Positions 56,648 through 57,787 of a stretch of DNA of 64,000 nucleotides are shown one piece after another; positions within the stretch are counted from its first letter, which is position 1, and each line of letters starts with the position of its first letter. The DNA is from Bdellovibrionales bacterium. GTDB lineage: Bacteria > Bdellovibrionota > UBA1018 > CAIMNF01. The position numbers were made by a program, and so were the translations under genes. The notes under the pieces were generated by a model. That model saw nothing but the letters and a program-made list of their open reading frames with translations. It was not told where the DNA came from and ran no database searches. Location of the stretch: assembly GCA_947502835.1 (NCBI GenBank), contig CANNBJ010000001.1:310001-374000 (forward strand). Direction: 5' to 3'.

Positions 56648-57318
56648 ACTCCTTTGGTGTCAGGCCCCCAGAGGTATTTGTGCAGCTGGATTTGAAACCG
56701 CACCGGCAGCTTGTCTCGAAGAATCCACTCCGCAAGGTCCCGCGCGGGGACTCCTAGGGTTTTTCCGGGCGAGCCGGCTGCGGGCACAGCCGGGGAGAAC
56801 AGGATTTCGCAAGCGGGAAGGCTGCCGCTCTGGACTAGTTCCTTGGCCCAGTCGTAATCGGATGCCGAAGTGATCACGAACTTGATCTCGTCCCCGGGTT
56901 TCAGGAAGCAAAGGTTTTTGGAAAAGCCCCCCCGACACATTCCCGAGCCGGGGGTCTTGATGTCCATGATGATTCGGGCCAGAGGGGCTGCAGCTTCGAT
57001 CGAAACCTCGCCATGGGTTTCAATGGAGACAAGGTAGCCCTCCTTCTTCAAAAGCTTCAGAAAGGGAAGTGTTCCCCTTTGGAGCAAGGGCTCGCCTCCG
57101 GTAAGGAGCACGTGTTTGGCGCCTGTGTTTCTGACCCGCTTCAGGACGGAATCAAAATCCATCCGGGTTCCGCCTTTGAAGCTGTAGGCAGAATCGCAAT
57201 ACGTGCAGCGCAGATTGCATCCAGTAAGTCTGATGAAAGTGAAGGGAACGCCACTCAATGTGGTTTCGCCCTGGAGAGAGTGGAAGATTTCAGTAACGAG
57301 AAGTCCGTCAAAGGCCAT
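56644..57318 (-). CDS. queE: 7-carboxy-7-deazaguanine synthase
   Basis: 224 residues. Radical-SAM motif 'TGCNLRCTYCDSAYSF' (C-x3-C-x2-C form) at about residue 33, 'LLTGGEPLLQ', 'SIETHGE' and 'IMDIKTPGSGM'. It makes CDG for preQ0/queuosine, the modification inserted by tgt at 48.2 kb. No clear Shine-Dalgarno precedes the ATG. An intrinsic terminator on the same strand ends about 30 bases upstream. Confidence 0.93.
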   Translation of the reverse strand: MAFDGLLVTEIFHSLQGETTLSGVPFTFIRLTGCNLRCTYCDSAYSFKGGTRMDFDSVLKRVRNTGAKHVLLTGGEPLLQRGTLPFLKLLKKEGYLVSIETHGEVSIEAAAPLARIIMDIKTPGSGMCRGGFSKNLCFLKPGDEIKFVITSASDYDWAKELVQSGSLPACEILFSPAVPAAGSPGKTLGVPARDLAEWILRDKLPVRFQIQLHKYLWGPDTKGV

Positions 57319-57344
57319 GGGGTTGGAAAAGTAGCGCAGGCGCG

Positions 57345-57386
57345 CGAAAAGAGAAAGGCGCGAATGGGGCTCATTCCATTCGCGCC
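57345..57386 (-). terminator. Strong intrinsic terminator ending the GEMM RNA, upstream of queE
   Basis: An 11-bp perfect stem GGCGCGAATGG/CCATTCGCGCC with an 8-base loop (57357-57386) is followed on the minus strand by TTTCTCTTTT. It separates the riboswitch-bearing RNA from queE. Confidence 0.85.
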
Positions 57387-57403
57387 TCGTTGAAATGAAG
57401 AGA

Positions 57404-57465
57404 GGGTCCGTTGCTCCTGTTGATCTATCGGGGTGAATAGATGATCAGTTGCTGTATTGGGACCC
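57404..57465 (-). ncRNA. 3' stem-loop domain of the GEMM RNA
   Basis: GGGTCC (57465-57460) pairs with GGACCC (57409-57404). Inside, TGATC (57447-57443) pairs with GATCA (57425-57421). This makes a long interrupted hairpin between the aptamer and the terminator. It does not obviously compete with either, unlike a normal expression platform. Confidence 0.55.
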
Positions 57466-57497
57466 CCCTTGAAAGCTTTGAAGGCTTCCTCACCTTT

Positions 57498-57582
57498 GGC
57501 AGCCCAGCCGACTTGGGTCTTCGGGGTAAAAGACCTGTAGTCCCGTTGGTTTTGCGTCGCCGACGTTTCCGTCGGGTTGCCT
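57498..57582 (-). ncRNA. c-di-GMP-I (GEMM-I) riboswitch aptamer
   Basis: On the minus strand: P1 GGCA (57581-57578) pairs with TGCC (57501-57498). A 6-bp hairpin CCGACG-GAAA-CGTCGG (57575-57560) carries the GNRA tetraloop. Then comes the invariant GACGCAAA (57558-57551), and the receptor-arm start GGGACTA (57544-57538). The P3 arm is GACT/AGTC and GGTCTT/AAGACC, and the 3' junction is GGCTGGGCTGCC (57509-57498). These match the GEMM-I consensus order and spacing. The aptamer is likely to bind c-di-GMP; 3',3'-cGAMP cannot be ruled out by eye. It lies in the 469-base gap 57319-57787, which holds no protein gene. Confidence 0.85.
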
Positions 57583-57629
57583 TTTTCAAAGGGGGTATGG
57601 ATTTCCCGCCTCTTCACGAGCCCTACTCG

Positions 57630-57641
57630 TTAGGGCCCTAA
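57630..57641. promoter_or_regulatory. 12-bp perfect palindrome TTAGGGCCCTAA upstream of the aptamer
   Basis: It is followed on the minus strand by a small hairpin ACGAG-TAGGG-CTCGT. The pair lies 5' of the aptamer and could be part of the RNA's 5' structure or an operator shared with the divergent gene at 57788. Confidence 0.35.
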
Positions 57642-57787
57642 ACTTGTCATGAGATTCTTAATCTTCTTTAACCTCCGTTAAAGGAACTTCATACTTCTAT
57701 GATAACTCAATGCGTTACAAAGGCAATGGGGCTGACTATTTTTTTTATGAAAGTTTGGGATTTCGCTGTAAGTTCAATGGGATCTCA

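Follow-up and report, generated by a model that had tools for sequence, protein, structure and literature searches.

Evidence for a stand-alone, self-terminated c-di-GMP-I riboswitch RNA with a predicted strand exchange beside queE in a Bdellovibrionales bacterium

Does a c-di-GMP-I (GEMM-I) riboswitch found just upstream of queE control that gene, or does it belong to an RNA gene of its own? The question is raised by the minus strand of a 64,000-nucleotide stretch of a Bdellovibrionales genome, hereafter the window. A precedent for the second possibility is merRNA of Bdellovibrio bacteriovorus HD100, located at 1,073,741-1,074,185 on the minus strand (PMC3627812, Karunker et al. 2013). So far merRNA has been known from one genus, no conservation has been found outside the Bdellovibrio lineage, and a storage model has been proposed for it. 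A preliminary description of the locus in the window had viewed it as the same kind of object, with a long leader controlling queE as the alternative.

Every sequence test identified the RNA as a GEMM-I aptamer. A cmscan analysis of the whole window matched RF01051 to positions 57591-57495 of the minus strand with 59.6 bits (gathering score, 35 bits; E = 3.9e-9), covering the full model (positions 1-87 of 87). The landmark set noted earlier on this strand is present, and the Infernal check that had been proposed gave a score above the cut-off. The aptamer is the sole GEMM-I copy in the 2.73-Mb genome, and RF01051 had no matches in 14 named control genomes. By our own alignment, G57581, A57553, and C57499 are the equivalents of Vc2 G20, A47, and C92, the ligand-contact residues of the c-di-GMP-I aptamer (PMC4744006), and their presence makes c-di-GMP the expected ligand. 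Some relatives in the order pass the cut-off of the altered-ligand variant c-di-GMP-I-GGC (RF03167), which is the better model by E-value. However, the window's RNA lacks the altered-ligand signature: A57553 in GACGCAAA keeps A47 (GCAAA), whereas the variant consensus is GACGCGAA (GCGAA). The RNA resembles RF01051 riboswitches in its aptamer fold, score, and ligand-contact residues, but typical members form 5′ leaders with an expression platform that regulates the gene downstream, and the platform here is terminated without a gene. The genome also has three GGDEF and 11 PilZ matches, so that c-di-GMP is very probably made. As no EAL match was found in this genome, breakdown would need another enzyme, perhaps an HD-GYP protein.

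For comparison, we used loci of 40 species from the same order and of about 80 from the phylum; counts of helices, terminators, and folds refer to 34 order loci, and paired cells to an alignment of order loci (A1). The strand folds better than its shuffled versions (z = -4.6), and conserved parts flank the aptamer on both sides. On the 5′ side they are, in order, hairpin H1, the UGAAGAGG element, hairpin H2, and the P1 strand; on the 3′ side, the UUUCAAAGGGGGG element, hairpin H3, CCUCUUCA, and the terminator hairpin. The RNA gene spans some 345 nucleotides (nt) of the minus strand, from a predicted start at about 57692 to an end at about 57347. The interval first assigned to it, 57345-57600, was too small, since the conserved parts extend from H1 (57638) to about 57347, with the -10 element of a probable promoter at 57704-57699. 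The features are as follows.

57699-57726, minus strand: probable promoter by consensus match, with -35 TTGCCT, 16 nt, and -10 TATCAT inside TGAGTTATCAT
57618-57638, minus strand: H1, the 5′ hairpin, 8 bp
57609-57616, minus strand: 5′ strand of P0a, UGAAGAGG, pairing with 57403-57396 (94.9% of A1 cells paired)
57592-57608, minus strand: H2, a short hairpin before P1
57584-57595, minus strand: switching strand CCCCCUUUGAAA, of which CUUUG (57591-57587) forms P1 and all 12 nt form P0b
57495-57591, minus strand: c-di-GMP-I (GEMM-I) aptamer
57521-57530, minus strand: C-rich apical loop of P3, UUUACCCCGA, with ACCCC nearly invariant in A1
57494-57498, minus strand: 3′ strand of P1, CAAAG, the proximal partner
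57463-57474, minus strand: distal strand UUUCAAGGGGGG, partner in P0b and competitor of P1, supported by an exact-complement count
57404-57465, minus strand: H3, GGGUCC with GGACCC, enclosing an accessory hairpin
57423-57442, minus strand: accessory hairpin repeating the loop motif ACCCCG, from A1 and folding
57396-57403, minus strand: 3′ strand of P0a, UCUCUUCA
57347-57388, minus strand: intrinsic terminator with a 13-bp stem, an 8-nt loop, and a U-rich tail, read directly and by comparison within the order

Covariation was assessed by pairing helix strands within their own genome or swapping them among genomes, in 5000 permutations; the test ignores relatedness, and its cross-helix controls were null, with own pairing no better than swapped. 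H1, H2, H3, and P1 covary, as swapped strands matched own strands in 0 of 5000 permutations for each of them. H2 is weak in this genome and strong in relatives. The strands of P0a (UGAAGAGG/CCUCUUCA, paired in about 95% of A1 cells) and P0b are nearly invariant and gave no significance in the same test, so that these two helices are proposed from conservation and complementarity, not from significant covariation. The C-rich apical loop of P3 is conserved in most of the order, and the accessory hairpin is restricted to part of the genus. There, ACCCCG appears in two hairpin loops of the minus strand (57423-57442 and 57521-57530), which suggests a common partner. A pseudoknot of the P3 loop ACCCC with the distal G run was rejected, because own and swapped pairings were equivalent (2595 of 5000 permutations).

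The terminator stem GAGGCGCGAATGG/CCATTCGCGCCTT occupies 57388-57355 and is followed by the tail TCTCTTTT. A terminator about 110 nt past the aptamer had been described with an 11-bp stem; its position holds, as it begins 107 nt after the aptamer, and the stem has 13 bp. In all 34 order loci, a hairpin resembling a terminator, with a folding energy between -16 and -34 kcal/mol, stands 4 to 10 nt past the CUUC element, and the stems differ freely in sequence among them. At the other end, the RNA probably has its own promoter, with a start site near 57692. By chance, the 2-kb region would be expected to contain one such consensus match, and the full -35/-10 pair scores only slightly above shuffles. 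TGnGnTAnnnT is nonetheless present upstream of H1 in 18 of the 34 order loci, compared with a mean of 1.4 and a maximum of 5 in shuffled sequences.

An alternative pairing predicted for the P1 strand is new in this analysis. The CUUUG of P1 has two alternative partners, CAAAG at the end of the aptamer and the distal UUUCAAAG; the second pairing belongs to P0b (CCCCCUUUGAAA/UUUCAAAGGGGG). Both states were modelled, and the share of paired cells is 94.8% for the P0b core and 97.6% for P1. An exact complement of CUUUGAAA is found in the 3′ domain of 16 of the 34 loci, against 0.03 expected. In constrained folding, P0b is predicted to be favored over P1 without ligand in all 34 sequences, by a median of 4.75 kcal/mol (range, 0.6 to 10.8; all fold energies are nearest-neighbor estimates), and by 10.8 kcal/mol in this genome. 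The G run of the distal strand overlaps H3, which is regained in the proximal (P1) form. The counterpart in Bdellovibrionaceae is UCCUUCC, located before P1, with GGAAGGA as its distal partner; it reaches -14.1 kcal/mol with their own 3′ parts versus -9.6 with shuffled ones, while the strands of the order reach -17.0 with their own 3′ parts versus -8.9 with 3′ parts taken from Bdellovibrionaceae. The sequence thus differs but the layout persists, as a functional strand exchange predicts.

This conserved exchange makes a conformational switch more likely than a passive store, the role suggested for merRNA in 2013, in which an RNA made in bulk does no more than bind c-di-GMP. Storage is a possible but less likely role. 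It would suit an RNA that is stand-alone, self-terminated, present in one copy, and attached to no gene, and merRNA is massively expressed in the attack phase (PMC3627812). The competing fold itself could serve storage by loosening a nanomolar aptamer toward a useful buffering range. For a nanomolar aptamer (about 1 nM, as quoted in PMC3627812), the median penalty of 4.75 kcal/mol would shift the apparent constant into the micromolar range, a rise of roughly 2000-fold. However, a plain store has no need of a conserved distal competitor, a closing stem, and flanking hairpins. The presence of the competitor strand makes the choice between storage and switching directly testable.

The alternative that the RNA is the 5′ untranslated region of queE, with c-di-GMP setting terminator read-through, concerns two features outside the RNA.

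57328-57338, minus strand: -10-like element of queE, TGCGCTACTTT, 10 to 20 nt before the start codon
56644-57318, minus strand: queE, a conserved neighbor

The gene product is a radical SAM protein (PF04055) whose best NCBIfam match is a QueE model, below that model's cut-off, and queE is the right name for it. A co-oriented queE is located 136 to 322 nt downstream in 34 of the 39 order loci where this could be read, a linkage strong enough that some functional tie could exist, and in most order loci only about 30 to 60 nt separate the terminator from the start codon. In the window, the terminator indeed precedes queE, as first reported, and ends about 37 nt ahead of its start codon (57318). 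Nevertheless, both the P1 and the P0b pairing are confined to the region upstream of the terminator, itself present in all 34 loci, in agreement with the earlier statement that no anti-terminator overlap is seen. The alternative pairing overlaps neither the terminator nor the ribosome-binding site of the next gene, the overlap by which a cis-acting leader would be recognized. A candidate anti-terminator, in which the CCUC of CCUCUUC pairs with GAGG of the terminator (or CCUCUUC with GAAG), is found in many species but is too weak, with about 4 bp, to compete with stems of about 13 bp. Furthermore, in five order loci the extended RNA and its terminator persist although queE is not adjacent; the next gene is convergent in four of them (G010, G017, G039, and G045) and a tRNA gene in the fifth (G012). 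In Bdellovibrionaceae as well, the next gene is mostly convergent. Finally, queE has its own -10-like element. In 15 of 20 order loci, GnTA stands at a constant position ahead of the queE start, compared with a mean of 1.2 and a maximum of 5 at random positions and with 2.6 in shuffles, and a Shine-Dalgarno sequence before queE was absent from all 21 order loci inspected for it. Together these two observations suggest that queE is transcribed separately and almost without a leader. The five loci with no queE beside the RNA, the -10 element of queE, and the missing Shine-Dalgarno sequence support a stand-alone RNA and make a leader of queE unlikely; the terminator present in all 34 loci and left free by the exchange argues in the same direction. 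It is thus the first of the two readings in the preliminary description, a stand-alone, self-terminated GEMM-I RNA, that the comparison upholds.

An antisense action on a neighboring convergent gene is highly improbable: an antisense tendency is reported to be strongest in the c-di-GMP family (PMC9943018) and the next gene is convergent in many relatives, but in the window that gene is co-oriented and the gene upstream of the RNA, a DUF4097/LiaG-like gene, is divergent, the neighbors vary between clades while the RNA and its terminator stay, and the terminator halts transcription ahead of a convergent gene. The reported tendency may in part reflect stand-alone RNAs beside convergent genes.

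We therefore favor, with reasonable though not high confidence, a conformational switch gated by c-di-GMP through the P1/P0b exchange and encoded by a gene of its own, with the c-di-GMP-I aptamer as the working part; of this model, the promoter, the ligand, and the folding order are predicted. Transcription would first produce the aptamer and the P1 stem (CUUUG/CAAAG). On emerging, the distal strand UUUCAAGGGGGG would compete for the 5′ strand CCCCCUUUGAAA. Without c-di-GMP, the RNA would pass to the P0b form, which is predicted to have the greater stability and to stack on P0a into a long, nearly unbroken duplex, whereas c-di-GMP would hold P1 and leave the distal G run to H3. At equilibrium, a ligand could hardly make up a difference of 10.8 kcal/mol, and we infer that switching in this genome would need kinetic, co-transcriptional folding.

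As the exchange reaches neither the terminator nor the ribosome site, a cis output is unlikely. With the terminator untouched in either state, the output would be the state of the RNA itself rather than queE expression, and the most economical model is a c-di-GMP-dependent change in its own fate or contacts. Candidate outputs are RNA stability, ligand load, or the accessibility of C-rich segments to other RNAs. RNase III could act on the long P0a/P0b duplex, and G-rich sites could pair with the C-rich loop of P3, ACCCC, which part of the genus repeats in the accessory hairpin. More speculatively, and with rather less conviction than for the switch, one may envisage a family of c-di-GMP-gated regulatory RNAs widespread in the phylum, in which the ligand selects one of two folds, and one of these either offers C-rich segments (ACCCC of P3 and the GGACCCCC strand on the 3′ side) for trans pairing with Shine-Dalgarno-like targets or alters decay. 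If so, these RNAs would be second-messenger receptors made of RNA and regulating in trans.

How close is this RNA to merRNA? An RF01051 match in one genome of the set (G223:C1:1073868-1073951, minus strand) falls inside the published merRNA coordinates, and we thus take that genome as HD100. There, an upstream TTGAAA-18-TATCCT ends 17 nt ahead of the published 5′ end. Like merRNA, the window's RNA has a single GEMM-I aptamer per genome, is stand-alone with its own terminator, and has no downstream gene under control; in both, moreover, the 5′ strand of P1 has a complement in a distal 3′ strand, a feature defined in this analysis. The window's RNA is thus of the merRNA type, with its GEMM-I aptamer carried by a self-terminated transcript that does not serve as the leader of a coding gene. 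In contrast, it is shorter (about 345 versus 445 nt), its flanking domains are unrelated in sequence, it adjoins queE, and it lacks the micro-ORF described below. The view that the two are the same kind of object therefore stands for the aptamer, copy number, self-termination, and switch layout, and fails for the flanks, neighbors, and micro-ORF. By analogy, the RNA would work like merRNA; orthology is not proven, as neither the sequence outside the aptamer nor the gene neighborhood is common to both. Apart from the 2013 study (PMC3627812) and two papers in which merRNA is mentioned, the literature outside subscription journals yielded no account of merRNA beyond Bdellovibrio. Trans-acting riboswitch RNAs of Listeria (Loh et al. 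2009, as cited in PMC3627812) are likewise terminated riboswitch RNAs acting as free molecules, but from that account they arise as side products of cis riboswitches that have a gene, whereas the window's RNA has no evident cis target.

Although merRNA was published as noncoding, a conserved ORF of 12 to 15 codons, led by a Shine-Dalgarno sequence, is present in HD100 (L058, G223) and in 31 further Bdellovibrionaceae loci. In HD100 it starts with an ATG 170 nt ahead of the aptamer (genome position about 1,074,121) and has the sequence MRTHEHHDDELK. In Bdellovibrionaceae the micro-ORF ends with ...H[HNR]D..[LP]K-stop, and its pN/pS ratio is 0.32 in frame versus 1.04 and 2.10 in the other frames. 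The merRNA of this family may thus be bifunctional. No consistent Shine-Dalgarno-led small ORF was found in the 40 loci of the window's order, and a 120-residue ORF across the RNA (57255-57617) is not conserved. In other families, a small ORF 5′ of the aptamer ends with ...LDPPPK or ...DPPPE before the stop codon (G089, G095, G298, G300, G304, G307, G315, G317, G323, G325, G331, G333, G335, and G354), and G354 has several such copies in a row. Polyproline endings are of the kind that stalls ribosomes.

Exactly one RF01051 match per genome was found in 40 of the 55 genomes of the order, including all 12 of the genus. Six order genomes (G014, G020, G022, G030, G032, and G036), each more than 90% complete, had no GEMM-I match. 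Across the phylum, 137 of 369 genomes have exactly one GEMM-I, which, together with a self-terminated relative in another order that has a conserved architecture of its own, indicates a gene family rather than a curiosity. In several members of the order (G021, G024, G029, G035, G037, G047, G051, and G053), contigs often begin 350 to 540 nt upstream of the aptamer, an 813-kb contig among them, as if a repeat were located there; an rRNA repeat was rejected as the cause, as no rRNA was found. Mrp/ParA-like P-loop genes (SGKGGVGKS) adjoin merRNA-type RNAs in G089, G095, G242, G291, and G354, and their recurrence in several families hints at shared synteny across the phylum.
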